Positions 7,088 through 21,307 of a stretch of DNA of 21,878 bases are shown in pieces (within the stretch, counting starts at the first letter, position 1; every line of letters starts with the position of its first letter). Origin of the DNA: a virus; IMG/VR virus record IMGVR_UViG_3300020159_002989, positions 1-21,878 of that record, one strand, 5' to 3'. Both the position numbers and the translations under genes were made by a program. The notes beneath the pieces are model-generated. The model had not been told where the DNA came from. It ran no database searches and saw nothing but the letters and a program-made list of their open reading frames with translations.

Positions 7088-7924
7088 ATGGAGACAGATA
7101 CCACTTACCCAAAACGAGTGCTGTCGCTCGGCGCGGGGGTTCAATCAACAGCCCTTTTATTAATGATGGTCAAAGGCGAATTACCCAAAGCAGACGAGGT
7201 GATATTCGCAGATACGGGTTGGGAACCGAAAAAAGTTTATTCGCATCTTGAATGGCTCAAAGGCATAATGGCAGAAAACGACATGCCTTTCCACATTGTT
7301 TCCAAAGGTAACATCCGCAGCGATTTCTTAGCCGAACAAAAACGCTACGCCTCAATGCCATTGCATTTAATCGGCGAAGATGGCAAAGGAGGGATGATCA
7401 GACGGCAATGCACAAGCGAATACAAACTCGGTCCTCTAATGAAAAAACAGCGTGAACTTGCTGGCTTAAAGTCTGGACAACGAAGCAAAGAACATCGCAT
7501 CACCACCGTTATAGGCATTTCGTATGACGAGGCGCAACGAATGAGAGACCCAGAGTTCTCGTGGATTAGGCACGACTATCCACTTGTTGACCAAAAGATA
7601 ACAAGACAGGATTGCATCAATTGGTGTATATCAAATGGTTACCCCAGACCACCTCGCTCCGCATGCATTGGTTGTCCATTCAAAAATCAAGATGAATGGC
7701 GTTATCTTAAACAAACACCAGAGGAATGGGATGACGCTGTAGATTTTGATAATTCTCTACGAACTCTGCCTCATTTAATTGCTCGTTTCCGAGGCACCCC
7801 ATTTTTGCACAAATCCAAAGTTCCGTTGTCGGAAGCAGACATAAGAACAGATGAAGAAAAAGGAATCTACGATTTGTTCGGCGATAACTTTGGTCAAGAA
7901 TGTGAAGGAATGTGCGGGATTTGA
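7088..7924 (+). CDS. PAPS-reductase-like PP-loop ATPase (DndC/CysH-related)
   Basis: Member of the adenine nucleotide alpha-hydrolase (PP-loop) superfamily, phage PAPS-reductase-like branch. The PP-loop is SLGAGVQSTALL (about residues 12-23) and a conserved FADTGWEPKKVYSHLEWL block follows. Further signatures are RRQCTSEYKLGPL and a C-terminal cysteine cluster, SACIGCPFK plus CEGMCGI, which could hold an Fe-S cluster or thiol. Family members activate substrates with ATP and often transfer sulphur or a thiol (CysH, DndC in phosphorothioation, thiouridine enzymes). Here its overlap with a DNA methyltransferase and a ParB-like gene suggests DNA modification or nucleotide chemistry rather than sulphate assimilation (inference). 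ATG 7088 was chosen over ATG 7058 because it follows the previous stop and has AGGA about 12 nt upstream. Confidence 0.82.
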   Translation: METDTTYPKRVLSLGAGVQSTALLLMMVKGELPKADEVIFADTGWEPKKVYSHLEWLKGIMAENDMPFHIVSKGNIRSDFLAEQKRYASMPLHLIGEDGKGGMIRRQCTSEYKLGPLMKKQRELAGLKSGQRSKEHRITTVIGISYDEAQRMRDPEFSWIRHDYPLVDQKITRQDCINWCISNGYPRPPRSACIGCPFKNQDEWRYLKQTPEEWDDAVDFDNSLRTLPHLIARFRGTPFLHKSKVPLSEADIRTDEEKGIYDLFGDNFGQECEGMCGI

Positions 7925-8592
7925 TACAAACTCCACAATTGACCTTAGTCCTTGGCGATTGCAGAGAGATGCTGTCAAAACTTGATATTGATTACGAAAA
8001 AACAATTTTTGTAAGCGACCCCCCGTTCAACATTGGGTATCACTACGACACCTATGAGGACGACATGACCGAAGACGATTACTACACTTTTCTCCTTGAA
8101 GTGTTCGGAACCAACAAGCAGGTAATTGTCCATTATCCAGAGGCGCTTTACCGACATTCCTACAACATCGGAATTTTCCCTGACAGGGTTGTGAGTTGGG
8201 TGTACAACTCAAACACCGCCAAACAACATAGAGACATTGCATTTTTTGGAGTTCGTCCAGATTTTCGCAAAGTTGGGCAGGATTACAAAAATCCTTCAGA
8301 CAAAAGAATTGCGAAACGGATAGCAGAAGGCAAAACAGCAAGACTTTACGACTGGTGGGAAATTAACCAAGTCAAAAATGTGAGTTCAGAAAAAACAGAA
8401 CACCCTTGCCAGATGCCCTACGAAGTTATGCGTCGAATAGTAGGAATTCTGCCTGAGGGCTACACAATAATTGACCCTTTCATGGGGAGTGGAACAACTG
8501 GTCTAGCCTGTAAAGAACTAGGGAGAAACTTTATCGGTATTGAACTAGACGAAAAATATTTTGAGATTTCAAAACGGAGACTTAATGTCTAA
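7912..8592 (+). CDS. DNA methyltransferase (N6-adenine/N4-cytosine), DPPF type
   Basis: AdoMet-dependent DNA methylase with motif IV DPPFNIGYHY (about residues 37-46) and C-terminal motif I DPFMGSGTTG followed by IGIELDEKYFEISKRRL. The order places it in the beta class. DPPF suggests adenine-N6 rather than cytosine-N4 methylation, but motif IV alone does not settle this. At 226 residues it is short and appears to lack a separate target-recognition domain. It begins with GTG 7912 or TTG 7921 within the end of the PP-loop gene, and its end overlaps the ParB-like gene by 8 nt, giving a coupled trio. ParB-methylase fusions are common in phages, so the ParB-like neighbour may supply DNA recognition (inference). 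Confidence 0.88.
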   Translation: MRDLIQTPQLTLVLGDCREMLSKLDIDYEKTIFVSDPPFNIGYHYDTYEDDMTEDDYYTFLLEVFGTNKQVIVHYPEALYRHSYNIGIFPDRVVSWVYNSNTAKQHRDIAFFGVRPDFRKVGQDYKNPSDKRIAKRIAEGKTARLYDWWEINQVKNVSSEKTEHPCQMPYEVMRRIVGILPEGYTIIDPFMGSGTTGLACKELGRNFIGIELDEKYFEISKRRLNV

Positions 8593-9373: not shown

Positions 9374-10498
9374 ATGAAAAACCTTCTACTTGTTGGCGAT
9401 GTTAGAGAAACACTCAAACAAATTGCAGACAAATCAATTCACTGTTGTGTCACAAGCCCACCTTATTGGGGTTTACGGGATTACGGAAACGACGGACAAC
9501 TCGGTCTAGAGCCAACGCCAACCGAATATGTTGACGAATTAGTTAAGGTATTCAAAGAGATACATCGAGTTTTGCGAGATGATGGAACCCTGTGGCTAAA
9601 CATTGGAGATAGTTACGCATCTTTTAGAGATGGGAAAGTTACCCCAGATACCACAAGAGGCGAAAGCAATGGAACTTTCGTAGAAAAAGGTAAAGCGTCC
9701 AACCGCATGGCATCATCCTTTGTCGGCACATCCATAAAACACAAAGATCTGGTCGGAATACCATGGCGTCTCGCCTTTGCTCTGCAAGCAGACGGCTGGT
9801 ACCTGAGGCAAGACATCATTTGGGCTAAACCCAATCCGATGCCAGAATCAGTTGCGGACAGATGCACCAAAAGTCATGAATATATATTTTTGTTAACCAA
9901 ATTGCCAAAATATTATTTTGACCATGAAGCAATTAAAGAAAAAGCCGTATCCAACAACAAGCCTCGACAATTCGGAGCCACAAAACCAGTGGGGACTATG
10001 AGGCAAGATGTCGGCAGGATTTTTGAAGATAATGGAACAAGGAATAAGCGTTCCGTGTGGACGGTGACGGTTAAGCCCTTTAGGGAGGCACATTTCGCCA
10101 CATTCCCCTCGGAACTCATAGAACCGTGTGTCTTGTCTGGAACCTCAGAGCACGGTGTGTGTAATCAATGTGGGAAACAGTATGAACGCAAAATGGAAAA
10201 AGGGAACATACCCGAGAGAAAAACACGAGACAATACATTGGGTGTACATCCAAACAGGTTGACCACCACTCGTCTCAATAGTGTTGACATGATTGCAATA
10301 CCACAACATCAGGTTGGGTGGCAGAAAACTTGCGATTGTGAAAAAAGCACTCCAGTCCCCGCCACCATATTAGACCCCTTCTTTGGCTCGGGAACTACGG
10401 GTCTTGTTGCCCAACAACTGGGAAGGAATTGGGTTGGTTGCGAAATCAACCCCGAATACGCAAAAATAGCGTCCGAGAGGCTCGCTCACGGGTTCTAG
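9374..10498 (+). CDS. DNA methyltransferase, beta class; paralogue of the 160-1521 gene
   Basis: N4-cytosine/N6-adenine DNA methylase of 374 residues. Motif IV is TSPPYWGLRDYG near residues 32-43, and motif I ILDPFFGSGTTG lies near the C-terminus, followed by VGCEINPEYAKIASERL. A Cys4-type zinc site is suggested by CNQCGKQYERK and CDCEK. It is a close paralogue of the minus-strand methylase at the left end but lacks that protein's N-terminal Cys/His insert; conserved blocks include WYLRQDIIWAKPNPMPES and EAHFATFP. Its motif I is canonical (DPFFGSGT), so this copy looks fully active. The start ATG has no Shine-Dalgarno; TAAGTT (9361-9366) ends 7 nt upstream, a possible -10 for a leaderless mRNA. 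Two paralogues may have different target specificities. Confidence 0.9.
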   Translation: MKNLLLVGDVRETLKQIADKSIHCCVTSPPYWGLRDYGNDGQLGLEPTPTEYVDELVKVFKEIHRVLRDDGTLWLNIGDSYASFRDGKVTPDTTRGESNGTFVEKGKASNRMASSFVGTSIKHKDLVGIPWRLAFALQADGWYLRQDIIWAKPNPMPESVADRCTKSHEYIFLLTKLPKYYFDHEAIKEKAVSNNKPRQFGATKPVGTMRQDVGRIFEDNGTRNKRSVWTVTVKPFREAHFATFPSELIEPCVLSGTSEHGVCNQCGKQYERKMEKGNIPERKTRDNTLGVHPNRLTTTRLNSVDMIAIPQHQVGWQKTCDCEKSTPVPATILDPFFGSGTTGLVAQQLGRNWVGCEINPEYAKIASERLAHGF

Positions 10499-10516: not shown

Positions 10517-11242
10517 GTGGAAACCAATCTCATAATATGCGGTGATGCCTTAAAGGAACTGCGAAGATTGCCTGACTCAACAATCAATACTGTTGTAACT
10601 TCGCCACCGTATAACAAAAAAGGAATACAAAACGGTAGGACTCAAAACAGTAATCAAATATGGCAAAAGCACAATATTGATTACAACGAGTACCACGACA
10701 ACATGCCCGAAGACGAATACCAGAGTTGGATTATCGAGATAGTTAACGAACTTCATCGTGTCATCACGCCCGACGGTTCTATTTTCTTAAACCACAAACC
10801 GAGGCGTCATAATAATCAAGCCAGATTACCCACAGAGTTCATTCACAAAACAAACGCAACCATCTACCAACTGATTATTTGGAACCGTAAGAACAGCCCG
10901 AATATACGCAAAGACCATTTGCTTCCGAACACAGAACATATCTATTGGCTATCCAAAGACAAACCAAAAACATTTCGAGAGAACATAGACTCAAAATACC
11001 TAGGTGAAATATGGGATATTCCGCCACAAAGACAGACCACACACCCTGCGCCATTCCCTCCACAATTAGTGGAAAACTGCATTCTTCTGACCACGCAACC
11101 AGAAGACATAGTTCTAGACCCATTCAATGGAATAGGCACAACGACATCGGGTGCGAAACGCCTAAACAGGCGATACATCGGGTGCGACCTAGACGCCGAT
11201 TATGTGGCGCAAGCGAACAGAGACTTGACAAAGTATTTTTAG
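10517..11242 (+). CDS. DNA methyltransferase, beta class, TSPPYN type
   Basis: Fourth DNA methylase of the window (241 residues). Motif IV is TSPPYNKKG (about residues 28-36) and motif I VLDPFNGIGTTTSGAKRL is near the C-terminus, followed by YIGCDLDADYVAQANRDL. TSPPYN-type enzymes include cytosine-N4 and adenine-N6 methylases, so the base is unsettled. A basic insert (NHKPRRHNNQARLP) may contact DNA. The start is GTG 10517, 18 nt after the preceding stop. TAAACT (10505-10510) ends 6 nt before it, the same hexamer as in the repeated start-associated element further right. The 3' end contains a TTGACA that belongs to the next promoter. Confidence 0.88.
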   Translation: METNLIICGDALKELRRLPDSTINTVVTSPPYNKKGIQNGRTQNSNQIWQKHNIDYNEYHDNMPEDEYQSWIIEIVNELHRVITPDGSIFLNHKPRRHNNQARLPTEFIHKTNATIYQLIIWNRKNSPNIRKDHLLPNTEHIYWLSKDKPKTFRENIDSKYLGEIWDIPPQRQTTHPAPFPPQLVENCILLTTQPEDIVLDPFNGIGTTTSGAKRLNRRYIGCDLDADYVAQANRDLTKYF

Positions 11243-11382: not shown

Positions 11383-11901
11383 ATGCAAGTGAAAAAACTA
11401 AATGAAGAAATGATTGATAAGTATCATTATTCACTTTGGGATGAAGCAAAGGAAAAACACGGGAGCGTCTACAAGGTTCCCTTCCAAGAAATTTTACAGA
11501 TGGGCGATTTGGTTCGAGGGTTGCATGTCCTGCACCTTTGGCAAAAACAAGGAAGCACGGGGAGCGGGGTGCGTTTTCTGGCGGGTTACAACTTCGGACA
11601 GCAGACATTGGAAAGATTGTCATCGGAGTTTCTTGAATACTTTGGTGTTGAGTCAGAGGAAGAATTCAAAAAAGAAAAAGTACCCGTTGAGAAGCGTGCG
11701 GACAAATTCAGCAAGTTTCTCAAATGGGCGAACGAGCATCATTTTGAACAATTCACGACCGAGCAACTAACCGAGCAAAGTGGTTTCTCGTATCAGACCA
11801 CCTTGAAATACTTACAGGAATCACCAACTTTCAGAAAACTCAAAAAGGGTCTATGGGAAATCCGTTGCGCAAAAACCGACCGAGAAGCGGCGGGCAAATA
11901 A
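11383..11901 (+). CDS. Hypothetical protein with a C-terminal winged-helix-like segment
   Basis: I do not recognise the family. The N-terminal two thirds is soluble and charged, with a helical middle (LERLSSEFLEYFGVESEEEFKKEK). The C-terminal segment FEQFTTEQLTEQSGFSYQTT, then LKYLQESPTFRKLKKGLWEIR, has the helix-turn-helix plus wing rhythm of a winged-helix domain, so DNA binding is plausible. The ATG is preceded by AAAGG at good distance, one of the few strong ribosome sites here. The stop TAA shares its last base with the ATG of the zincin gene (TAATG), so translation is coupled. It may regulate the long C/A-rich operon it heads (inference). Confidence 0.75.
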   Translation: MQVKKLNEEMIDKYHYSLWDEAKEKHGSVYKVPFQEILQMGDLVRGLHVLHLWQKQGSTGSGVRFLAGYNFGQQTLERLSSEFLEYFGVESEEEFKKEKVPVEKRADKFSKFLKWANEHHFEQFTTEQLTEQSGFSYQTTLKYLQESPTFRKLKKGLWEIRCAKTDREAAGK

Positions 11902-12791
11902 TGACCACCATAGAAGACATCAAAAAATACACAGTCCACATTCCACTAGACGGACGCAACGGTGACAGTCTCGGAGGCGACCTAGACATAGAACTAGACG
12001 AACAACAAGACGACTACACCACCCCCGAAGAAGAACAACTCATACAACAATGGTGCGGAGACAACCCCGCACCAGTAATTAAAATCAGAGGACGCAGACA
12101 CAAACAACTCACGCTCACCAAAGAAGCACTGAAACACCTCATAGAAATCATCAGATACCGAACACAAGATTTCAACATAGACCCCCGAGACCCTGACTGT
12201 CGCAACTACATGGCATTCGGACAGAGACTCATTGACTCACTGACCCACACCCTCAACGGCACCACTCGACCACCTAAACCCAAAAAACCCAAATCTCTCA
12301 CCGCAAAACAAAGGGAAGAACTCACCAAACAACGACACAGACTCCTCACCAAAGAAGCACAGATTATTTGGAAAAAAATGGAGCAATGGCACCGAGGGAA
12401 ACCACTACCCAAAATAAAAATCAGTTACACCAGACAAAAAAACAAACGGGGCATGGGGTTCGCACACGAAAGCGGAAAGCCATGGGGGTGGATACAAATA
12501 GACCTACCAACCGAAATCCCCGACGACAACCAATGGTGGCATTGGGCAGTCCTCGTCCACGAACTTGCACACCACGCATGTCCACCGATAAAAGCAGAAA
12601 CGGGCAAAGGATGGCGAGACAACTCACATCACCGTGTCTTCTACTATTGCATCAGGCATGTATGGGAAAAGCGACTGAAGTGTGAACTCACCTTCAAAGA
12701 TGTAAAAACTTGGGGTTACTCGGTAGACCGCATCATAGAGAAACAAGGGAAACACCTCGTAAGGTTCAAACTACCCAACCACAAAAAATAA
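11901..12791 (+). CDS. Putative zinc metalloprotein (zincin, SprT/WLM-like HExxH)
   Basis: A 296-residue protein whose central and C-terminal part resembles zincin metallopeptidases. HELAHH (residues 220-225) gives the HExxH zinc and catalytic site, and H243/H244 in SHHRVFYY could be the third ligand. The preceding block (GMGFAHESGKPWGWIQIDLP, then WWHWAVLVHELAHH) fits the strand-helix layout of SprT-like proteins. The N-terminal 100 residues are acidic and Lys-rich linkers follow. SprT-like proteases act on DNA-protein crosslinks in some systems; here the role is unknown. The start is ATG 11901, overlapping the preceding stop by one base, not the longer frame to 11853. Its codons are heavily C- and A-ending. 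Confidence 0.75.
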   Translation: MTTIEDIKKYTVHIPLDGRNGDSLGGDLDIELDEQQDDYTTPEEEQLIQQWCGDNPAPVIKIRGRRHKQLTLTKEALKHLIEIIRYRTQDFNIDPRDPDCRNYMAFGQRLIDSLTHTLNGTTRPPKPKKPKSLTAKQREELTKQRHRLLTKEAQIIWKKMEQWHRGKPLPKIKISYTRQKNKRGMGFAHESGKPWGWIQIDLPTEIPDDNQWWHWAVLVHELAHHACPPIKAETGKGWRDNSHHRVFYYCIRHVWEKRLKCELTFKDVKTWGYSVDRIIEKQGKHLVRFKLPNHKK

Positions 12792-12820
12792 CCCCAAACA
12801 GTCCCCCGCTAGATAAACTA
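12791..12820 (+). repeat. Start-associated element, copy 1
   Basis: ACCCC, then ACAGTC (12798-12803), 7 nt, then AGATAAACTA (12811-12820). TAAACT (12814-12819) ends 8 nt before ATG 12828. Upstream is the A-rich tract ACAAAAAATA. The spacing from ACAGTC to AGATAAACTA is the same in all four copies. It is a candidate promoter with TAAACT as -10, or a translation signal. Confidence 0.65.
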
Positions 12821-12827
12821 AAAAATC

Positions 12828-13343
12828 ATGGCAAAACGCATGACATATTTAGAACGGTTCAACCAAAAAGTAGAAAAAACAGATTCTTGTTGGCTTTGGA
12901 CAGGTGCGAAAGCCTCTAACGGATACGGCTGCATGTCGTACAATGGCAAGTCCACTAGCGCCCACAGACTCAGTTATCTACTCCACAAAGGTGACATACC
13001 TGAAGGTTTAATCATCTGCCACACCTGCGACATTCCACACTGTGTAAACCCAGACCACCTATGGGTTGGTACATACACACAAAACTCTCACGACATGCTC
13101 GAAAAAAACAGGCAAGGTGAAAACATGCGCGTTAAAACGCATTGTCGCAAAGGACACTTATTCACCCCCGAAAACACGTATGTGAGAACAACCGCCGACG
13201 GGAAAAGTCACAAAAACTGTAGACACTGCCGAAAAATAAACAAAAAAGTAAATAGAAATAACCCTGAGAAAAGACAGAAAATATTGAAATATGAACGCGA
13301 ATACATGAAAAAATATAAACGCAAACAGCCACCCGATAGATAA
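12828..13343 (+). CDS. HNH endonuclease with C-terminal zinc finger
   Basis: Homing-type HNH nuclease common in phages. The N-terminal module [14 protein letters not shown] and [16 protein letters not shown] leads to the catalytic HNH/zinc region [19 protein letters not shown] (about residues 64-82) and NSHDML. A second Cys/His motif, [14 protein letters not shown] with NCRHCRKI (about 104-140), is the zinc tail often attached to such enzymes. The basic C-terminus ([13 protein letters not shown]) should bind DNA. It may be a free-standing homing endonuclease or a nicking enzyme in packaging or recombination; there is no intron nearby. Start-associated element copy 1 precedes the ATG, and its own TAA stop lies inside copy 2. 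Confidence 0.88.
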
Positions 13344-13347
13344 ACTA
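13318..13347 (+). repeat. Start-associated element, copy 2
   Basis: ACAGCC (13325-13330), 7 nt, AGATAAACTA (13338-13347). TAAACT (13341-13346) ends 8 nt before ATG 13355. The AGATAA doubles as the final Arg codon and TAA stop of the HNH gene. It has one mismatch in the ACAGTC block and the weakest C-rich block of the four copies. An A/T-rich stretch precedes it. Confidence 0.6.
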
Positions 13348-13354
13348 CAACGAG

Positions 13355-13888
13355 ATGGAAAACGCTACGAAATATCCGTTGATGCACCTCACCGCCCGAG
13401 AAGTATTACAACTGCGCAGATTTACCGACATCTGTAAAGCAAACAAAAACGACCACCAAGTCACCGACCGCAAATACACAACACAAGCCACAGAAAAAGG
13501 CATCATCATGCTCGGCAAAGCAGGAGAAGTAATCGTCTCCCGCTACTACAACACAGAAATAGATTGGGAAATCTATGTAGGCGCAGACAACGGCTTTGAT
13601 ACAACCATCAACAACAAAAGCACCGAAATCAAAACATCAAGCCAAAAAAATCTTATAATCAACGACCCAGAACACTGCAAATATGGGCTATGGAAACCCA
13701 ACACCGAACAATGCATCGTCGTATGGTGCAACCAACCCAAAAACCAATGGGAAAACATCGGCACAAACACACAATTCCAAATAATCGGCGGAACAACCCG
13801 CGAACATTTCTTTACAAACGCCCACAAAACAGACTACGGCTACGGACCAAGACTCACCCTCAACGCAGATAGCCTCATCCATCTGTGA
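13355..13888 (+). CDS. PD-(D/E)XK-superfamily nuclease-like protein
   Basis: The 177-residue protein carries the core signature of restriction-endonuclease-fold nucleases: an early Glu (GKAGEVIVSRYY, about residue 55), Asp in NGFDTTIN, then TEIKTSSQ as the ExK motif (about 89-96). The order and spacing E-x(n)-D-x(8-12)-ExK suit Mg2+-dependent DNA cleavage. The fold is inferred from these motifs, not from close similarity to a named enzyme. It could act in DNA processing, host DNA degradation or defence against other phages. Start-associated element copy 2 lies 8 nt upstream of the ATG. The stop overlaps the WhiB GTG start (GTGA), linking the two in translation. Confidence 0.75.
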   Translation: MENATKYPLMHLTAREVLQLRRFTDICKANKNDHQVTDRKYTTQATEKGIIMLGKAGEVIVSRYYNTEIDWEIYVGADNGFDTTINNKSTEIKTSSQKNLIINDPEHCKYGLWKPNTEQCIVVWCNQPKNQWENIGTNTQFQIIGGTTREHFFTNAHKTDYGYGPRLTLNADSLIHL

Positions 13889-14274
13889 ACACCCCCGTAT
13901 CACACCAAGCCCGCTCAACACTCCCATTTGACACAGCGCTCTCAGCCTGCCAAGAACACGGCGTCAGCGTTTTCTATCCACTAGCCGAACACGCCCACAT
14001 GTCATCAAAAATGCGGGCACTCATCGTGAAAGCAAAACAAATCTGCGACACATGCCCAGTGAAAACACCGTGCCTCGAGTATGCACTCGTCAACGAATCA
14101 TACGGCATCTGGGGGGGCATGTCCGAAACAGAACGACAATACGAACGCATGAACAGGGGAATCGTCTATCAGCCTTGGCACACGGGCTACGGACATGAAA
14201 TAGAAAGTGCCAACGCCATGCGAGCACGCAAAAGATGGAGAGACCGAAAACTCAAACAAAACGAACTAATTTAA
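13885..14274 (+). CDS. WhiB-family Fe-S transcriptional regulator (second copy)
   Basis: A second WhiB-like protein of 129 residues. Cluster ligands are C22, C54, C57 and C63 (spacing X31-X2-X5), followed by GIWGGMSETER (74-84), the conserved sigma-contacting turn. The C-terminus is basic (MRARKRWRDRKLK) and may contact DNA near the -35 region, as in known WhiB proteins. It shares only the family core with the first copy at 5323-5730, so they are not recent duplicates. GTG 13885 overlaps the nuclease stop. Because it lies in the operon carrying four start-associated elements with non-consensus -35 regions, it is a candidate activator of those promoters (inference). Confidence 0.9.
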   Translation: MNTPVSHQARSTLPFDTALSACQEHGVSVFYPLAEHAHMSSKMRALIVKAKQICDTCPVKTPCLEYALVNESYGIWGGMSETERQYERMNRGIVYQPWHTGYGHEIESANAMRARKRWRDRKLKQNELI

Positions 14275-14281
14275 TAGAACC

Positions 14282-14521
14282 ATGAAACCAAAAGAAAAAA
14301 AATCACCCAGAAAAACAGAAATAACAACAGCCGACATAACCTTCATCGGAGGGACATTAGACAAGCGAACCCTCCGCTTCATATACCCAACACCCCAATA
14401 CCTAGTCATGCACAAAGGCACCGAACTATACAAACGCCTAGACCCCACAGGCGTAGTAGACGCCAACTACCAACACACCACTAACTGGGAAGAATACACA
14501 CCCCGAAAGGAACCATTCTGA
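14282..14521 (+). CDS. Hypothetical small basic protein
   Basis: A 79-residue protein with a Lys-rich start (KPKEKKSPRKTE) and a beta-rich body (DITFIGGTLDKRTLRFIYP). I recognise no family or catalytic residues. ATG 14282 lies 7 nt after the WhiB stop without a Shine-Dalgarno; TAATTT (14267-14272) ends 9 nt before it. The TGA stop meets the next ATG with shared base 14521. Reliable as a gene from its operon position and the same C/A-rich codon usage as its neighbours; function unknown. Confidence 0.65.
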   Translation: MKPKEKKSPRKTEITTADITFIGGTLDKRTLRFIYPTPQYLVMHKGTELYKRLDPTGVVDANYQHTTNWEEYTPRKEPF

Positions 14522-14982
14522 TGTACATCAACACCATCGCAAACATCGCCAGAAACGGACGCCGACGCTCATACGCCCTCCTCTGCTACGCCAGAATGCG
14601 CACCAGAATGTCCCAAGGAGAATGGTTCACCAGAGACGACTACTACAACTTCCAAGTCCAAAAAATAGAAAAATCCAAAATACAGGACTACACAATTCGA
14701 CTCGCCCAAGCAGGACTCCTAGAACGCCACCCCAACAAAACATTATGGAGAATCACCACCGACGGCATCAAATCAATCCCCGCAATAGAACGAAAAATGT
14801 ATCAAATGAGCCCACACGGAAACAGCAACAACAACGAAAACGAAAAAAATCGCCAAAACCGCCTACAACAAGAAGAAACAAAAATCCTCAACGAACTCCT
14901 CACCAAAGCAACAATCCCCAAAACACAAAAACGCGCGCCGAATTTTTTTGGAAAACACCCCCAACAGTCACCCGCCAGATAA
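14521..14982 (+). CDS. Hypothetical winged-helix-like protein with Asn/Gln-rich tail
   Basis: The first 85 residues look like a winged helix: helix SYALLCYARMRTRM, then GEWFTRDDYYNF, recognition-helix-like KSKIQDYTIRLAQAGLLERH and a wing (NKTLWRITTDGIKSI). Such a domain would bind DNA, perhaps as a small regulator. The remaining 65 residues are polar, Asn/Gln/Lys-rich and probably disordered. The TAA stop is embedded in start-associated element copy 3 (the AGATAA part), as in the HNH gene. The start overlaps the previous stop by one base. Family not recognised beyond the fold guess. Confidence 0.7.
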   Translation: MYINTIANIARNGRRRSYALLCYARMRTRMSQGEWFTRDDYYNFQVQKIEKSKIQDYTIRLAQAGLLERHPNKTLWRITTDGIKSIPAIERKMYQMSPHGNSNNNENEKNRQNRLQQEETKILNELLTKATIPKTQKRAPNFFGKHPQQSPAR

Positions 14983-14986
14983 ACTA
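14957..14986 (+). repeat. Start-associated element, copy 3
   Basis: A CCCCC block, ACAGTC (14964-14969), 7 nt, AGATAAACTA (14977-14986), then AAACGC and ATG 14993. TAAACT (14980-14985) ends 7 nt before the ATG. Upstream similarity to copy 4 continues through a CGCGC stretch and an AATTTTT tract from about 14933, so these two copies share about 55 nt. TAA at 14980-14982 is also the stop of the preceding gene. Confidence 0.7.
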
Positions 14987-14992
14987 AAACGC

Positions 14993-15493
14993 ATGGAACC
15001 TTTACTAATAGAATTAGAACCCTGGGAATACGAACACGCTTGCGATGTAGGAATACGCAGATACACCGCAAACTGGAACAAACAAGACGCCCCACATTAC
15101 GCAAACAAAAAACTGCAAGAAGACAATCGGACTGCACTAGTAGCATCAGCAGTCTGTGAACTAGCAGTAGCCAAACATACGAACAGATATTGGTCAGGTC
15201 ATGTATGGCACGCCACAGAACACCAAAAATATCGTCACATACCCGATGTAGGCAAAAACATTGAAGTACGCAGACTCAGAACACGAGAAGAAGCCGCAGT
15301 ACGAAAACACCAAAACAACATACAAAAACTCGTACTATGGGTCGCAAAACCAGTCATGCCAGAACTACGACAAATACACCTATACGGATGGATAACACAA
15401 ACAGACGCATGGCAACAAGGAACAGCCTCAGATTACGACCCCGAAAACACCAAAACCATACACATCAGCAAACTCAACAACCCAAACCTATAA
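14993..15493 (+). CDS. PD-(D/E)XK-like nuclease-fold phage protein
   Basis: A 166-residue protein of a type often seen in actinophages. The pattern ASAVCELAVAKHTNRYW, then HIPDVGKNIEVRRLRTREE, resembles the restriction-endonuclease fold: early Glu, Asp, then an E-V-R motif where ExK is usual. The following LVLWVAKPVMPELRQIHLYGW and TDAWQQG match the late strand and helix. The Lys-to-Arg change could mean a non-catalytic or altered enzyme. The frame is open upstream to 14948, but ATG 14993 directly follows start-associated element copy 3 and is clearly the better start. It is the second nuclease-fold gene in this operon; a relation to the one at 13355 is structural at most. Confidence 0.7.
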   Translation: MEPLLIELEPWEYEHACDVGIRRYTANWNKQDAPHYANKKLQEDNRTALVASAVCELAVAKHTNRYWSGHVWHATEHQKYRHIPDVGKNIEVRRLRTREEAAVRKHQNNIQKLVLWVAKPVMPELRQIHLYGWITQTDAWQQGTASDYDPENTKTIHISKLNNPNL

Positions 15494-15528
15494 AAAACCT
15501 GTGACCGCCGCGCAAATTTTTAAAAACC

Positions 15529-15558
15529 ACCCCCAACAGTCCCACAACAGATAAACTA
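15529..15558 (+). repeat. Start-associated element, copy 4
   Basis: CACCCCC, ACAGTC (15536-15541), 7 nt, AGATAAACTA (15549-15558), then AAACGACC and ATG 15567. TAAACT (15552-15557) ends 9 nt before the ATG. It stands in a true intergenic gap (15494-15566) with a CGCGC and AATTTTT tract upstream as in copy 3, so the conservation is not due to coding sequence. Confidence 0.7.
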
Positions 15559-15566
15559 AAACGACC

Positions 15567-15986
15567 ATGCCCAACAAACAAAAAAAACACCCCACCCCCG
15601 GCACCGAAATCCTCCAAGAAGCCTACAAAATCGTCAACCAAGACCGCCAAAACACCTACGGACACCCCAAAGACGACTACACCAAAGTCACCAACATCTA
15701 CCAAACCCTCACAGGACACCAACTCACCCTCACCGACGCACTCCTCTTCATGGTCTCCGTCAAACTCGCAAGACTCAAAACCAACCTAGATTTAGGACAA
15801 CTCCACTACGACACACTCCTAGACGCCATCGGCTACCTCACCTGCATCAACATGATTCACCAACCAGAAAGCACAACCAATGACAACCCCAAAAACACCA
15901 AAAAAGAAACAAACAATCGAACAAGAAATCAAACAAATAGAAAAAGAAACAACACAACTAAACCGAGAAATCCAAAAACTAGATAA
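15567..15986 (+). CDS. DUF6378-like phage protein with a low-complexity overlapping tail
   Basis: Residues 12-98 follow the pattern of the DUF6378 family of phage and bacterial proteins: EILQEAYKIVNQDRQNTYGH, then LTLTDALLFMVSVKLARLK and DTLLDAIGYLTCI. The layout recalls small all-alpha nucleotide-metabolism proteins, but the family's function is not established. After about residue 104 the sequence turns into an Asn/Lys/Thr/Arg-rich tail that coincides with another gene's frame (15880-16089). The real domain therefore ends near 15880 and the tail is probably a by-product of the overlap. The start follows start-associated element copy 4 with no Shine-Dalgarno. Confidence 0.75.
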   Translation: MPNKQKKHPTPGTEILQEAYKIVNQDRQNTYGHPKDDYTKVTNIYQTLTGHQLTLTDALLFMVSVKLARLKTNLDLGQLHYDTLLDAIGYLTCINMIHQPESTTNDNPKNTKKETNNRTRNQTNRKRNNTTKPRNPKTR

Positions 15987-16089
15987 AGAAATAGCCAAAC
16001 TCACCGAAGAACTCAACACACCCACCTCAGATAAACCTAAAAAACAAAAACAGGTTCAAAAATTTGTCGCACCACTACCCGCGCTGTAG
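15880..16089 (+). CDS. Coiled-coil small protein overlapping the DUF6378-like gene
   Basis: A 69-residue protein starting at ATG 15880 inside the preceding gene, in another frame, with 107 nt of overlap. It has a textbook heptad coiled coil (IEQEIKQIEKETTQLNREI, then QKLDKEIAKLTEELN) with Ile/Leu at a/d positions. The non-overlapping end is Lys/Gln-rich and finishes FVAPLPAL. The heptad makes this frame, not the DUF6378 frame, the likely selected one in the overlap. No membrane segment or catalytic residue is seen. Dimeric adaptor or scaffold-like function is a guess. It is the last gene of the C/A-rich plus-strand operon. Confidence 0.6.
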   Translation: MTTPKTPKKKQTIEQEIKQIEKETTQLNREIQKLDKEIAKLTEELNTPTSDKPKKQKQVQKFVAPLPAL

Positions 16090-16170
16090 TCCGAGTTTGA
16101 AAAGGTTGGCAGTCCCGTTTATGAAAACGATTTTTGACACTTCATTTTCGTTCGCAGTGGTGTGCTTGTG

Positions 16171-16341
16171 ATGCGTTTCCTTGTGCCTTTGTTGTTTGTG
16201 ATGGTCGCCATTTATTGGATTTGTGAGTTGTTGTGGTTTGTGTTTGTCACGAACTTCGAAAATGTTGTTGCTTCTTTTGTGATTTGTTTTGTTGCCGTGT
16301 TTGTTTATTGGTTTGTTCGTGCCTTACAAAAACTATTCTGA
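16171..16341 (+). CDS. Small membrane protein with two predicted transmembrane segments
   Basis: A 56-residue ORF that is almost entirely hydrophobic. Segment one is FLVPLLFVMVAIYWICELLW (residues 3-22). A short polar turn, TNFEN, follows, and segment two is VVASFVICFVAVFVYWFV (32-49), with basic residues at both ends. A two-helix hairpin of this size is compatible with a holin-like or accessory membrane protein, but no lysis enzyme is nearby and the role is unknown. There is no strong ribosome site before ATG 16171. TTGACA (16134-16139) lies upstream but without a good -10 box. The DNA is G/T-rich, in sharp contrast to the C/A-rich genes before it. Confidence 0.55.
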   Translation: MRFLVPLLFVMVAIYWICELLWFVFVTNFENVVASFVICFVAVFVYWFVRALQKLF

Positions 16342-16537
16342 CCATAGAGAGTGGCAACGCTGTCATCGTGAGGATACGAAGGCTAAGCGTGAGTGGCGTA
16401 GAGAGTATGAGCGTGAGCGTAAGAATGCTGAGCGTGTTGCTTTGTATGAGTTGTTGCCTGAGCCTGAGAGGTCTCGTAGGTTGGTGGCTAATGCGAGGCG
16501 AAGGTCGTTAGGTTTGCGTTGGCGTGTCGAAAAATAG
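16319..16537 (+). CDS. Small highly charged basic protein, hypothetical
   Basis: A 72-residue protein from GTG 16319, dominated by Arg, Glu and Lys (REWRREYERERKNAERVALY, then EPERSRRLVANARRRS). It probably forms one long amphipathic helix followed by a basic tail suited to nucleic-acid binding. The frame is open upstream to 16289, but that start would add hydrophobic residues that look like the overlapping membrane gene read in another frame. The 23-nt overlap with the membrane-protein gene suggests coupled translation. Codons are G/T-rich (CGT, GAG, GCT, TTG). No family recognised. Confidence 0.55.
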   Translation: MPYKNYSDHREWQRCHREDTKAKREWRREYERERKNAERVALYELLPEPERSRRLVANARRRSLGLRWRVEK

Positions 16538-16540
16538 TGC

Positions 16541-16560
16541 TACGGGTGGCTTACGGGTGG
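16541..16560 (+). repeat. Tandem 9-bp direct repeat upstream of a promoter
   Basis: TACGGGTGG occurs at 16541-16549 and 16552-16560, an 11-bp period that places both copies on one DNA face. It begins just after the preceding stop and ends 23 nt before the -35 box at 16584, a good position for an activator or repressor. A related CTACGGGTG recurs at 16998-17006. Confidence 0.5.
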
Positions 16561-16583
16561 TATGACTACTACTCATCTAATAC

Positions 16584-16612
16584 TTGACATACACTCAATA
16601 CCGTTATATACT
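16584..16612 (+). promoter_or_regulatory. Strong sigma70-type promoter TTGACA-17-TATACT, leaderless
   Basis: A perfect TTGACA (16584-16589), a 17-nt spacer and TATACT (16607-16612). The ATG of the next gene starts at 16620, 7 nt after the -10 box, exactly where transcription should begin. The mRNA is therefore predicted to be leaderless, as is common in Actinobacteria. No Shine-Dalgarno is present. Confidence 0.75.
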
Positions 16613-16619
16613 TAGACTT

Positions 16620-16769
16620 ATGAACTATCGTTACGATATTAAACCTGACATATACCCATCCACTAAGTGGTTAGTGATAGACACACAGAACCGCAACTGT
16701 CCTGTATCGTCACACAGCACACGGGCAGAGGCATACAAAGAGTGTCTGCGAATGGATAGAGGACGATAA
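16620..16769 (+). CDS. Hypothetical 49-residue protein, leaderless
   Basis: Begins MNYRYDIKPDIYPSTKWLVI and ends ECLRMDRGR. It looks like a small alpha/beta domain: two strands (KWLVIDTQNRN, PVSSHS) and a helix (TRAEAYKECLRMD). This resembles the short phage proteins that carry one strand-strand-helix unit, but no family is certain. The frame is open upstream to TTG 16584, but that codon lies in the -35 box, so ATG 16620 is the only sensible start. It is the first gene under the promoter at 16584-16612 and is followed 2 nt later by a membrane mini-gene. Confidence 0.65.
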   Translation: MNYRYDIKPDIYPSTKWLVIDTQNRNCPVSSHSTRAEAYKECLRMDRGR

Positions 16770-16771
16770 CG

Positions 16772-16882
16772 ATGAAACGCATCTACGGGGTGTTGCTCAA
16801 CATCTATCTCATTACTTTACTAATCGCAAGTATGTTATTCCTGTTTGGTTTCGCAGGCATGACATTCCCCCTAGACCAATGA
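16772..16882 (+). CDS. Single-pass membrane mini-protein (36 residues)
   Basis: A basic start (MKRIYG), then a continuous hydrophobic segment (VLLNIYLITLLIASMLFLF, residues 7-25) and a short polar end (MTFPLDQ). The ATG follows GAGGA (16758-16762) by 9 nt, inside the end of the previous gene. Translation is supported by the ribosome site, the tight spacing and the shared promoter. Function unknown. Confidence 0.5.
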   Translation: MKRIYGVLLNIYLITLLIASMLFLFGFAGMTFPLDQ

Positions 16883-16904
16883 TTGATATAAGGAGTGAAG
16901 TGTG

Positions 16905-16994
16905 ATGACTCGTCTGGTGGGGCTACTTATCCTTATTGCGGGCATATGGTTGTGGCGCAAAGGTATGGAGTATGAGCGTAGAGGCAGGCAATAA
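16905..16994 (+). CDS. Single-pass membrane mini-protein (29 residues)
   Basis: MTRLVGLLILIAGIWLWRKG followed by MEYERRGRQ: a short transmembrane helix with a charged cytoplasmic-type tail. AAGGAG (16890-16895) lies 6-9 nt before GTG 16902 or ATG 16905, one of the better ribosome sites in the window. It closes the mini-gene group at 16171-16994. The size and layout recall regulatory or holin-associated micro-proteins, but nothing specific can be assigned. Confidence 0.5.
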   Translation: MTRLVGLLILIAGIWLWRKGMEYERRGRQ

Positions 16995-17000
16995 CGCCTA

Positions 17001-17023
17001 CGGGTGCTACCCGAGTGCTACTC
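17001..17023. terminator. Two adjacent small hairpins between convergent genes
   Basis: CGGGT-GCT-ACCCG (17001-17013) is followed at once by GAGT-GCT-ACTC (17013-17023); both have the same GTGCTAC core. They lie between the plus-strand mini-genes and the minus-strand HNH stop, which the second hairpin overlaps. There is no U tract on either strand, so they are not classical intrinsic terminators, though the position suits transcription stopping. Confidence 0.3.
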
Positions 17024-17371
17024 CCAAGAGTGCTTCGCCAACCCCAAGTCGAACGCCAACTGAGGATGATTGCCGATTCGATTATGACAGTCCCGACACA
17101 CAGCAATACAGTTGTTTTCATCAACCACCGACCCGCCCTGAGACCGGCGCACCAACTCATGAATGTCCCTTGACGGCTTACGGACATAAGTAACCAGCCC
17201 ATCATGTTCAGCGAACACAGGACACGCAACACAATACGGGTGTTTGTTCAGCATCATCGCAACGAAGATGCGTCTTTCGACATCAGCAACTTCTCGTTTC
17301 GCCGACTTCTGCTTCAGCGGTTTAGTCGACCGTTTGAGGGGCGACCTTTTTAGCGGTTTGCGGGGCTTCAA
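17018..17371 (-). CDS. HNH endonuclease, short phage type
   Basis: A 117-residue HNH nuclease. The basic N-terminus (KPLKRSPLKRSTKPLKQK) should grip DNA. A CVAC pair (YCVACP) and CRDCH bind the structural zinc, and the catalytic motif runs HELVRRSQGGS, then ENNCIAVCRDCHNRIGNHP (about residues 71-105). Proteins of this build occur in many phages, sometimes near terminase genes, where they assist DNA cleavage at packaging. This one lies after a ribbon-helix-helix gene, with a 4-nt ATGA overlap, as the last of three genes on the minus strand. It is unrelated in layout to the larger HNH protein at 12828. Confidence 0.85.
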   Translation of the reverse strand: MKPRKPLKRSPLKRSTKPLKQKSAKREVADVERRIFVAMMLNKHPYCVACPVFAEHDGLVTYVRKPSRDIHELVRRSQGGSVVDENNCIAVCRDCHNRIGNHPQLAFDLGLAKHSWE

Positions 17372-18206: not shown

Positions 18207-18237
18207 AAGCCCAATAAAAAGGGGCACTTTTGGGCTT
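18207..18237. promoter_or_regulatory. 8-bp inverted repeat touching the -35 box
   Basis: AAGCCCAA (18207-18214) pairs with TTGGGCTT (18230-18237) across a 15-nt loop. The right arm covers the first two bases of the TTGACA at 18236, so a bound protein would block the promoter. Neither strand has a U tract directly after the dyad, so a terminator is less likely than an operator. Confidence 0.45.
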
Positions 18238-18264
18238 GACAATACGACTGTAAGGCTATATAAT
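18236..18264 (+). promoter_or_regulatory. Perfect consensus promoter TTGACA-17-TATAAT, leaderless
   Basis: TTGACA (18236-18241) and TATAAT (18259-18264) both match the sigma70/SigA consensus in all 12 positions, with the ideal 17-nt spacer. ATG 18271 follows 6 nt after the -10 box, where transcription should begin, so the metallophosphoesterase mRNA is expected to lack a leader. This is the strongest promoter visible in the window. Confidence 0.85.
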
Positions 18265-18270
18265 GGAAGT

Positions 18271-19077
18271 ATGGAAAAACTAGACAACACTAAACAAGCA
18301 GACCAAAGGGTCTTGTTTGCAGGCGACATTCACGGCGACATCAAGCACGCAGAGTGGGTAATCAAGCACGCATCGGAACAGGATTGTACGCACATCATCT
18401 CCGTAGGTGACTTCGGATATTGGGTTCACCAACCTCGTGGAGAGAAGTTCGTGAACCGTGTCGCACAACTCGCAGAGCAAGCACAAATCAAGTTCTTGTG
18501 GATTGACGGCAACCACGAAAACCACGACATCCTTCGTGACCTTACCGACAAGTACGGCAAGCACGCACCCATCAACACACCAAATGAGTGGTTGCAATAC
18601 ATCCCTCGTGGATGTCGTTTCACCATCGCAGGCAACATCCTGATGGGTTACGGCGGTGCGTATTCAGTTGACTGGTTAGACCGTGTAGAAGGAGAATCAT
18701 GGTGGCGTGGCGAACTCATCAACCCTTTCGATGTTGACCTACTTAGTAGCGAACCCGTTGACATCTTGATGACGCACGACGCACCGTATGACAACGGCAG
18801 GAAAATCACATACAAGGATGACCTACAAGTATCTATCGCACAACGACATCTCGTGAAGGAAATCCTTGACAAGGTGACACCACAGTTTCATGTTTGCGGA
18901 CATCACCATGTTCGTGAAACTTGGATGGACGGCGACACCGAAGTCAATGTCCTCGGGCGTGACGGCATGGGTGCGGAAAGCGTCCTGATATTGGACTTGT
19001 CACAACCCGAAGATGACCGAACATTTGATTTGGACATCGGAGTTGAGTTCAATCGACTTTTGGAAAGTTACAAGTGA
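18271..19077 (+). CDS. Calcineurin-like metallophosphoesterase
   Basis: A 268-residue phosphoesterase with the full dimetal signature: FAGDIHGD (DxH, residues 17-24), VGDFGYW (GD), IDGNHENHD (GNHE, about 79-87), LMTHDAPYD (H) and CGHHHVRE (GHxH). These coordinate two metals and cleave phosphomono- or diesters. The substrate could be RNA or DNA ends, cyclic nucleotides or phosphoproteins, and cannot be chosen from sequence. GxYGGAYSVDW and WW segments are typical of the phage/bacterial YfcE-Ser/Thr phosphatase-like branch. It heads a plus-strand operon with a perfect promoter and a leaderless start. The next gene overlaps its stop. Confidence 0.9.
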   Translation: MEKLDNTKQADQRVLFAGDIHGDIKHAEWVIKHASEQDCTHIISVGDFGYWVHQPRGEKFVNRVAQLAEQAQIKFLWIDGNHENHDILRDLTDKYGKHAPINTPNEWLQYIPRGCRFTIAGNILMGYGGAYSVDWLDRVEGESWWRGELINPFDVDLLSSEPVDILMTHDAPYDNGRKITYKDDLQVSIAQRHLVKEILDKVTPQFHVCGHHHVRETWMDGDTEVNVLGRDGMGAESVLILDLSQPEDDRTFDLDIGVEFNRLLESYK

Positions 19078-19346
19078 TGCGTAAAGGCAAAGAGCGGATG
19101 CCCGAACCTCGTCCGAAAGACGAGTACGAGACAGAAGCAGACAGATTACTCGCATACGCGCAGTTCGTAGCAGATACAAAATGCAGTGCGGTAGACCTCG
19201 GCGACTACTACTACGAGTATTCGGGTGATATCACGATTCTCGTGACTCACGACAAAGTCACAGCACACAACATGAAAACCGAAACTGTCGTGGTCGCACA
19301 ACCACAACCACCGACGGAAGCAGATTGGGCGTGGGCAATACGATGA
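19077..19346 (+). CDS. Hypothetical protein, 89 residues
   Basis: Starts MRKGKERMPEPRPKDEYETE. It is charged, with a helix (EADRLLAYAQFVADT) followed by a beta-rich part (GDYYYEYSGDITILVTHDKVTAH). No family or active-site pattern is recognised. ATG 19077 shares its A with the last base of the phosphoesterase stop (GTGATG); GTG 19074 is a one-codon-longer alternative. The stop overlaps the next ATG by 4 nt, so it belongs firmly to the operon. Confidence 0.7.
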   Translation: MRKGKERMPEPRPKDEYETEADRLLAYAQFVADTKCSAVDLGDYYYEYSGDITILVTHDKVTAHNMKTETVVVAQPQPPTEADWAWAIR

Positions 19347-19666
19347 GCAAACTCGAAATGGAAGATAGCACCAAAGAGACACGGCAACTAGCGGAAGTTT
19401 GGCATCGTCTCACAACACTTTTCCCGACAACACCACTGATTGCGACTGTAAGCGGAACTGCGTCCGAAAGCGAAAAGCAGTACGGTGCGTTCGCAAACGG
19501 TCAAGAAGCATACGAGTGGTATGTCAAGCAACCGTGGACTACGGTGCGCATCAGATTCGTACCATTACGCAACCCGAATATCAAACGGACATACAACGAT
19601 TTTTACAACCCGATGCGTCACGAAAATCTAGAAAAAGAATATAACCACACAATCAAGGAGATATAG
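19343..19666 (+). CDS. Hypothetical protein, 107 residues
   Basis: Starts MSKLEMEDSTKETRQLAEVW and ends EKEYNHTIKEI. One helix (ETRQLAEVWHRLTTLF), a beta segment (LIATVSGTA) and a FANGQEAYEWYVKQPWTTVRIRF stretch suggest a small alpha/beta domain. I recognise no family. ATG 19343 overlaps the previous TGA (ATGA) and was preferred to the in-frame GTG 19325, which would lie deep in the upstream gene. Confidence 0.7.
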   Translation: MSKLEMEDSTKETRQLAEVWHRLTTLFPTTPLIATVSGTASESEKQYGAFANGQEAYEWYVKQPWTTVRIRFVPLRNPNIKRTYNDFYNPMRHENLEKEYNHTIKEI

Positions 19667-19668
19667 AC

Positions 19669-19908
19669 ATGAATAAAACATATGAAGCAATAACAGTTGA
19701 CGACAACATCGTCGGTTCAACGATTATCGACATCCGTCCGATGACGGCAGACGAGATGAAAGCAGAAGGATGGGAGAAACGAGAAATCCCAATGGTTCTC
19801 GTCCTCTCTAGTGGCACAATCTTGTACCCGTCGCAAGACACGGAAGGCAACGATGCGGGTTCTCTATTCGGGAAAACCTCAGATGGTGTATCCATCGGTA
19901 TCTACTAA
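19669..19908 (+). CDS. Hypothetical protein, 79 residues
   Basis: Starts MNKTYEAITVDDNIVGSTII. It has a beta-rich pattern (IDIRPMTADEMKAEGWEKRE, IPMVLVLSSGTILYPSQD, GNDAGSLFGK) resembling small phage proteins whose GTxLYPSQDxEGN block recurs in actinophages; function unknown. AAGGAG (19655-19660) at good distance makes this the best ribosome site of the operon. The TAA stop shares its last base with the next ATG (TAATG). Confidence 0.7.
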   Translation: MNKTYEAITVDDNIVGSTIIDIRPMTADEMKAEGWEKREIPMVLVLSSGTILYPSQDTEGNDAGSLFGKTSDGVSIGIY

Positions 19909-20488: not shown

Positions 20489-20965
20489 TTACCAAGCCTC
20501 TTCTTCTTCAACTTGAACTTGAGCCATTGGCTGTGGTTTGTTGCGGGCTGGCGCAGATGCAACAGCCTTCGCTTTCGGCACAGACCCACCTGATGCTGAG
20601 TTATCTGTCTTTTGCTTACGGACAAACGAGTCAATGTTTCCAACTGACAAACCGATGTTGTCGGCAAGGACTTCGACTGTCGACCGCTTTGCGCCGGTCT
20701 CCTTGTCGTCCCAAGACCGTTGTTCCAACCGTCCCGTTACAACAACTTTCACGCCCTTCGCAAGAACGTTTGCGGCGTCCTCGGCGAGGAAACGCCAGGC
20801 GACAACATTGAAGAACGAAACTTTCTCCTGCTTTTCGCCGTCGGTGTCAGTCCAATAATGGTTTACTGCCATGCTGAAAGTCAACTTGCCCACTCCTGTC
20901 GGCAAAAACTTCAGTTCTGGGTCGGCGGTTACATTGCCGACCAAAGTTACGGGTGATGCACTCAC
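20489..20965 (-). CDS. ssb: Single-stranded DNA-binding protein
   Basis: An OB-fold SSB of 158 residues that coats single-stranded DNA in replication and recombination. The core is visible as PVTLVGNVTADPELKFLP, GKLTFSMAVNHYW, VSFFNVVAWRFLAEDAANVL and KGVKVVVTGRLEQRSW. A flexible Ser/Ala/Pro/Gln linker follows, ending in the acidic EEEEAW. The bacterial tip that binds partner proteins is normally DDxxPF; here Trp ends the tail, so it may prefer phage partners (inference). The start is GTG 20965, with AGGAGG (complement of 20973-20978) 7 nt upstream, a near-perfect ribosome site. The longer frame to 21019 would add unlike-SSB residues before that site and is rejected. Confidence 0.92.
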   Translation of the reverse strand: MSASPVTLVGNVTADPELKFLPTGVGKLTFSMAVNHYWTDTDGEKQEKVSFFNVVAWRFLAEDAANVLAKGVKVVVTGRLEQRSWDDKETGAKRSTVEVLADNIGLSVGNIDSFVRKQKTDNSASGGSVPKAKAVASAPARNKPQPMAQVQVEEEEAW

Positions 20966-21015
20966 TTCGGATCCTCCTAGTGTAAATCCCAGCCTCGATG
21001 ACTGGGTAGTTGCTA

Positions 21016-21031
21016 GCATCCTAGCGGATGC
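21016..21031. promoter_or_regulatory. Hairpin/dyad between the divergent SSB and acidic-protein genes
   Basis: GCATCC-TAGC-GGATGC is a perfect 6-bp inverted repeat with a 4-nt loop, overlapped by GCTAG/CTAGC. It stands about 20 nt before the plus-strand ATG 21050 and about 50 nt before the SSB start, suiting an operator for both. TATTAT (21037-21042), a -10-like box, ends 7 nt before ATG 21050. Confidence 0.4.
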
Positions 21032-21049
21032 GGGACTATTATGTCAACC

Positions 21050-21307
21050 ATGACCAAACCAACTTACGAAGAAACTCGACTCAAAGTCCGTGACCTGCTG
21101 ATGGAAATCCTTGTCTCTCTGGCGGTTGACGACGAGACGACCGACGAAGAAATCGCCACATTTGAGGACGACATGGGAGGGGTGGCTGATTTGATGCTTG
21201 ATTCGCTTGGGTTTCAGGTTGTTTCGGTGGACAACGAAGAAGGAACTCAGTTCACGGCGAAGTTCGACATCATCGAAGGCGACCCGCTCGACGACGACCT
21301 GAGTTAG
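21050..21307 (+). CDS. Hypothetical acidic protein, 85 residues
   Basis: A very acidic small protein (VDDETTDEEIATFEDDMGGV, IEGDPLDDDLS) with a helix near the start (YEETRLKVRDLLMEILVSLA) and a beta-like end (FQVVSVDNEEGTQFTAKFDII). No family is recognised. The charge recalls DNA-mimic or SSB-partner proteins, but that is a guess from composition. I prefer ATG 21050 because TATTAT ends 7 nt before it; ATG 21041, three codons earlier, lies inside that box. It converges with the next gene, overlapping its stop by 4 nt (21304-21307). Confidence 0.65.
   Translation: MTKPTYEETRLKVRDLLMEILVSLAVDDETTDEEIATFEDDMGGVADLMLDSLGFQVVSVDNEEGTQFTAKFDIIEGDPLDDDLS

Follow-up and report, generated by a model that had tools for sequence, protein, structure and literature searches.

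The window analysed here is the whole of an IMG/VR virus record (IMGVR_UViG_3300020159_002989, 21,878 bases), and coordinates below refer to it unless another region is named. Its locus of interest is framed by two recognizable genes, a DUF6378 gene on the plus strand upstream (15567-15986; Pfam PF19905, E 1.8e-16) and a convergent HNH endonuclease gene on the minus strand downstream (17018-17371; Pfam PF01844 above cut-off, phrog_15522 E 7.8e-13). A plus-strand ORF for a Lys-rich coiled-coil product, CC69 (15880-16089), is the immediate upstream neighbour of five mini-genes on the same strand, m1 to m5. A sequence-only reading of the window had reported five ORFs of 56, 72, 49, 36 and 29 codons here, and every one of them was recovered. 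That reading had also treated them as a single set; m3, m4 and m5 do follow one promoter together, whereas m1 and m2 lie upstream of it and do not belong to the same set. A terminator scan of the m5/HNH end found none (fold z -1.2).

The lineage carrying these genes consists of large phages of up to 145 kb that encode a WhiB protein and are known here from metagenomes alone. In the 145-kb relative, G003, the mini-genes lie at 55.6-57.0 kb, and DNA-metabolism genes surround them there as they do in the window. The host is probably actinobacterial, on the grounds of the WhiB gene and of distant relatives of the primase in Arthrobacter, Streptomyces, Gordonia and Microbacterium phages only. WhiB has been described, in the account given in PMC6802176, as a marker of freshwater actinophages, and the isolated freshwater actinophages of similar G+C outlined in PMC10202952 have genomes of about 39 kb, compared with up to 145 kb in the present lineage.

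Viral loci were scanned with the flanking HNH and DUF6378 genes plus m3, which gave 104 viral loci. From 105 loci and the window, we kept those with hits to both flanking genes, 67 entries that correspond to 27 distinct sequences (hereafter regions); loci at contig ends, for example L009, L081, L082, L087 and L031/L218, were excluded from the counts. L017-L021 and L030 are nearly identical among the 27, and the number of distinct proteins is 15-18 for m1, m2, m3 and m5. The usual operon in relatives is m0-m3-p177-m5, where m0 is a membrane ORF of 24 amino acids and p177 a soluble gene of about 177 amino acids between m3 and m5. Homologues of m5 occur in all 27 regions, those of m1, m3 and p177 in 26 each, of m2 in 23, of CC69 in 22 and of m4 in three; p177 is missing only from the window.

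By length alone, the mini-gene set is only mildly unusual. Seven plus-strand ORFs of at least 29 codons were observed, compared with 4.5 in random sequence of the same composition (fraction reaching this number, 0.096), and four of at least 56 codons compared with 0.73 (fraction 0.004). It is the conservation of their reading frames that separates the mini-genes from chance. Close relatives had been proposed as the place to look for disrupting stops or frameshifts and for a conserved order: there are no in-frame stops across the 27 regions, in any distinct family sequence, and the gene order is kept throughout. The other two frames, by comparison, contain a stop in 17/18 and 17/18 sequences of m1, 16/16 and 16/16 of m2, 16/16 and 16/16 of m3, 2/2 and 1/2 of m4, and 15/19 and 14/19 of m5. 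The pN/pS ratio in the annotated frame (values for the other two frames in brackets) is 0.29 for p177 (1.28, 1.44), 0.31 for m3 (1.18, 1.35), 0.43 for m5 (0.91, 1.81), 0.48 for m2 (1.09, 1.39) and 0.07, from a single pair, for m4 (0.70, 3.42). For m1 it is 0.65 (0.79, 1.69), suggesting weak selection, and for m0 it is 0.44 (0.38, 6.78), no lower than in one of the other frames. CC69, at 0.79 in frame and 0.80 in one other frame, is not distinguished as coding. As judged from sequence comparison, m2, m3, p177 and m5 have strong evidence of coding, m1 and m4 fair evidence and m0, by pN/pS, weak evidence; taken as a whole, the case that the mini-genes are conserved protein-coding genes arranged in an operon is strong.

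The first, fourth and fifth of the window ORFs had been proposed to encode membrane proteins. Two of them are clearly hydrophobic, and the third is borderline in the window. m1 (16171-16341), with 56 amino acids, has two predicted membrane helices that would form a hairpin (two segments with a 19-residue Kyte-Doolittle mean of at least 1.6, best 2.38); its start is GTG in some relatives, and in the window it has no clear ribosome site. m4 (16772-16882), with 36 amino acids, has one predicted membrane helix (one segment by the same measure, best 2.49). m5 (16905-16994), with 29 amino acids, or 30 if counted from a GTG at 16902, has a single hydrophobic stretch followed by a basic C-terminus. 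Its best hydropathy value in the window is 1.34, but 11 of the 18 distinct sequences in its family reach the 1.6 threshold, so that we describe it as a borderline short anchor. The ribosome sites claimed before 16772 and 16905 correspond to purine-rich stretches, GAGG and AAGGAG, that are indeed present.

The second upstream gene, m2 (16319-16537), has a GTG start that overlaps m1 by 23 nt and encodes a soluble, very basic protein of 72 amino acids (net charge +9), with 38 invariant columns among 15 sequences. A profile search showed that it belongs to a wider family, with 57 loci in viral contigs. In other phages (e.g. L201, L213, L219), relatives of m2 adjoin a relative of the window gene p212, outside the mini-gene operon; p212 (1930-2568) encodes an uncharacterised protein of 212 amino acids and is present in 7/7 long relatives. 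m2 therefore appears to move independently of the remaining mini-genes. A likeness between m2 and the N-terminus of HNH endonucleases, suggested by MPYKD...REY motifs, found no family support and was dropped.

A strong promoter had been claimed ahead of the last three ORFs, and one was found: a sigma70-type promoter, TTGACA-17-TATACT (16584-16612, plus strand), that agrees with the consensus at 11 of 12 positions and is kept as TTGACA-17-TATANT in 27/27 regions. A consensus scan of 15900-17100 returned this one promoter compared with 2.0 expected in shuffled sequence; it is thus the strength and conservation of the promoter, not the count, that are notable. The ATG of m3 (16620) lies 7 nt 3' of the -10 element in the window. 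An ATG is found at exactly this distance in 23/27 regions, the exceptions being L005, L008, L010 and L029; for L069, L074 and L091 a script flagged an earlier TTG, and these regions were counted since the printed sequence has ATG at 7. This placement fits leaderless translation, and m3 would accordingly be leaderless in the window. The first ORF after the promoter is m3 in the window and in L002, and m0 in most relatives.

When the strict promoter-plus-start arrangement was sought in the window and all of G003 (166,751 bases together), five places were found, and four of these five represent two loci shared by the genomes, namely the mini-gene operon and a metallophosphoesterase gene. In the window, the latter gene (18271-19077) is preceded by a second promoter of this kind (18236-18264, plus strand) with an ATG 6 nt after the -10 element, in the same arrangement as in G003. 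Counts in five sets of randomised sequence were 3, 3, 8, 1 and 2; what stands out is therefore the matching location in the two genomes and not how many places there are.

The genes behind the promoter are closely packed. m0 is usually the leaderless first gene by its position and is coupled to m3 by a stop/start overlap of -4 (ATGA) in 18/18 regions with a full-length m0, that is, in 18 of the 27 regions. It is absent from the window, L002, L005 and L029, and shortened in L003, L004, L008, L010 and L015. In L008 and L010 the start has changed to ATA, and the 12-codon m0 of L003, L004 and L015 keeps the start, the stop and the overlap. Where m0 precedes it, as in most relatives, m3 has its own upstream TAGGAG. 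Further along, p177 and m5 overlap by -4 or -1 in 25 of the 26 regions with p177. From this layout we infer transcription of the operon from the promoter, leaderless translation of its first ORF and coupling of the genes that follow.

m3 (16620-16769) encodes a soluble protein of 49 amino acids with a predicted beta-beta-beta-alpha arrangement, and its AlphaFold2 model has a mean pLDDT of 84. DUF2188 and DUF1508-type small domains likewise show three strands followed by a helix, and all matches of m3 to them are below significance. DUF2188 was seen weakly in three of 15 m3 members (best E 0.034, below the Pfam gathering cut-off), and window m3 itself matched no family, DUF2188 included. A Foldseek search of the m3 model against PDB gave no significant match (E 1.2, 7.5), and the top two short solved structures among its insignificant matches were HVO_2922 and NMB1088, both of which we take to carry the DUF1508 label. 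Profiles of m3 and p177 had no matches among the sequences of solved structures.

The p177 proteins are well conserved (81% mean column identity in an alignment of 16) and gave a confident single-domain AlphaFold2 model (pLDDT 84), for which Foldseek found no significant match in PDB. Its likenesses in BFVD, A0A6J5NA91 (75% identical) and A0A6J5NG04 (TM 0.72), are uncharacterised phage proteins, as is S5Y969 of Mycobacterium phage Catdawg (TM 0.59). A relationship between p177 and p212, which might then be paralogues, is suggestive and not established: BLASTP gave E 5e-4 for one pair, and the hhalign probability was 1.5 with the p212 sequences of the lineage and 39 when a broader set of p212 sequences was used.

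In place of p177, the window contains m4 and what may be a p177 remnant of eight codons (16879-16905, plus strand), ATG ATT GAT ATA AGG AGT GAA GTG TGA, which translates as M-I-D-I-R-S-E-V-stop. Its first codons are those of p177 in relatives (MIDI), and its right part equals the last codons of L002 p177 (AAGGAGTGAAG); it overlaps the m4 stop (ATGA) and the m5 start (TGATG). m4 was otherwise found only in L008 and L010, the three regions providing two distinct sequences; the window copy is 88% identical to that of L008 at the DNA level, with 69% of the changes at third codon positions. The backbone of the window is L002-like, with DNA identities of 91% in m1, 89% in m2, 83% in m3 and 87% in m5. 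L002 is its closest relative in m1, m3, m5 and CC69 (83-91%); m2 is the exception, being nearer to L011 (92%). L002 is without m4, and both joints of the window match L002, with GATAACGATGA on the left and AAGGAGTGAAG on the right. The window would thus be a derivative that combines an L002-like backbone, the rare m4 and a p177 stub. A pattern search with the m4 end matched only the L008 and L010 contigs, so the window joint was seen once, in one contig, and might in principle have arisen during assembly. We favour a real exchange event because the frame and the overlaps are preserved at the joint.

Another replacement was observed in L218, which lies outside the 27-region count (its HNH gene runs off the contig, and it yielded no DUF6378 hit). 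There, the promoter, m0 and m5 are present, and an ORF of 251-261 amino acids (L218:3472-4257) replaces m3 and p177. This ORF looks like a fusion, matching APS_kinase at E 9e-17 and CTP_transf_like at E 1.5e-5, and has a weak similarity to nicotinamide-nucleotide adenylyltransferase, below the curated NCBIfam cut-offs. The space behind the promoter therefore differs in content: p177 in most relatives, m4 with p177 in L008/L010, m4 with the p177 stub in the window, and the kinase/adenylyltransferase ORF in L218. Because of these differences, we describe it as an exchangeable slot, with the promoter and m5 as its conserved borders. Conservation of the sequence, of the gene order and of the promoter, together with exchange at the slot, is evident from the sequences compared. 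Between m5 and HNH, L002 has an extra Thr-rich ORF of 293 amino acids with a signal-peptide-like start (region coordinates 1867-2748), and other relatives differ in the length of DNA at this place.

Searches for relatives outside this lineage were largely negative. Window DNA, p177, m1, m2 and p212 had no match in 50,697 phage records by near-identity and protein searches, m3 had one insignificant match there (E 0.4), and genome contigs scanned with the p177 profile and with the primase contained no relative. The five ORFs m1-m5 had no convincing family in Pfam, PHROGs, NCBIfam or PADLOC, a defence-family search of the mini-gene proteins gave no convincing match, and no homologue of known function was found for m0-m5 or p177. 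No description of an m0-m3-p177-m5 operon was recognised in a literature search covering titles and abstract openings.

We consider it reasonably probable that these genes form a small-protein locus in which a leaderless promoter, coupled mini-genes and an exchangeable slot serve an early, host-facing accessory role. Host RNA polymerase carrying the principal sigma factor would read the near-consensus promoter, and the transcript would begin at or beside the first ATG, so that the first ORF, mostly m0 and in the window m3, would be translated without a leader. The ATGA and TGATG overlaps would tie the following short genes together, while the slot would take up p177 with or without m4, m4 with a stub, or the kinase/adenylyltransferase gene. 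The inner membrane may be where the products of m0, m1, m4 and m5 act, and the slot may hold fast-turnover genes for host takeover or counter-defence. Our best guess is an early accessory locus for one of these two purposes; counter-defence is suggested because of the turnover of the slot and one NAD-related cargo, that of L218. This single case would fit the phage pathways for NAD restoration outlined in PMC12774641.

The main rival holds that m0, and perhaps m5, are cis elements whose translation brings ribosomes, by way of the overlap, to the gene that follows, the peptide itself being secondary. The near-invariant m0/m3 and p177/m5 overlaps speak for it, as do the 12-codon m0 with its retained start, stop and overlap and the window p177 remnant that retains both of its overlaps; coupled small ORFs with conserved linkage and a non-conserved peptide figure in the account of Shell et al. 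(PMC4633059). Against it, the matched part of the m0 peptide is 72-100% conserved among full-length members, hydrophobicity is kept in 8/8 m0 proteins, and m5 shows the in-frame constraint reported above. We regard this reading as possible and rather doubtful. Superinfection exclusion, in which the membrane mini-proteins would block DNA entry by a second phage, strikes us as unlikely. Exclusion systems commonly consist of small membrane proteins, and several tiny predicted inner-membrane proteins do stand here behind a strong host-type promoter; they resemble, however, no named family in the four collections searched, and both the slot and the first gene vary, whereas exclusion proteins could act alone.

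A holin-like function had also been suggested, and the proteins are indeed small and hydrophobic: m1 is a two-helix hairpin with both termini likely inside, and a count of one to four helices in a short protein applies to m1 (two) and m4 (one). A holin or lysis role is nevertheless very improbable because the lysis genes of G003, an endolysin gene (19057-19818; VanY and PG_binding_1 domains, PHROG endolysin E 4e-13) and a gene for a two-helix, holin-like protein of 126 amino acids (20809-21189), lie about 35 kb from its mini-genes, and the searches made found no lysis gene within the 21.9-kb window. That the mini-genes are chance ORFs of an intergenic region is hardly credible: chance ORFs of 29-36 codons are common, as the counts above illustrate, but these have kept their frames, lengths, starts and order in 27 distinct regions despite many substitutions.

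The proposed early accessory locus shares features with three described systems. Shell et al. 2015 (PMC4633059) document leaderless mycobacterial ORFs in which RTGA overlaps provide the coupling. As far as that account extends, the present operon is similar in its ATG at the presumed 5' end of the mRNA, its RTGA overlap, its very short products and its actinobacterial setting, here deduced from WhiB; it differs in being phage-borne and in having serial mini-genes, a conserved membrane peptide and changing cargo, with a transcript start predicted from sequence only. Gp11 of a Staphylococcus phage is presented in PMC11237401 as an early small membrane protein acting on the host. The mini-genes similarly include small membrane proteins among early-type genes, and the envelope is a plausible target, a comparison made at the level of protein type. 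For archaeal viruses, the summary in PMC11065993 describes how counter-defence genes were located by means of early promoters that are both strong and conserved; in the mini-gene locus, likewise, a single strong and conserved promoter precedes genes that differ between relatives. Unlike the archaeal loci, the mini-gene locus has a bacterial-type promoter and retains its membrane mini-genes as the cargo changes, and counter-defence is a conjecture here.

More speculatively, the locus might represent an undescribed type of accessory locus, in which a leaderless promoter with m0 first and m5 last frames a one-gene slot, the overlaps survive exchange, and cargo for takeover or counter-defence is expressed early at the membrane; we advance this tentatively, as a proposal that may well prove wrong. 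Genes as short as 24-56 codons mostly go unnoticed in phages, and a single genome offers little means of proving them real; comparing 27 regions indicates that most of the mini-genes are under selection and places them around a site of exchange. If the slot reading is true, the promoter and m5 could together be used to probe large actinobacterial phages for new takeover or counter-defence genes. The shortening of m0, from 24 codons to 12 to complete absence, and the p177 stub also provide a natural test of peptide function versus translational coupling.

Finally, several features of the wider window were noted. Four ORFs (160-1521, 7912-8592, 9374-10498 and 10517-11242) are DNA methyltransferase-like by motifs recognised by eye, and a scan for RNA families and tRNAs found none in the window. 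The plus strand is extremely rich in A+C at 11500-16100, with an AT skew of at most 0.53 and a GC skew reaching -0.37, and this richness switches to T+G at m1.
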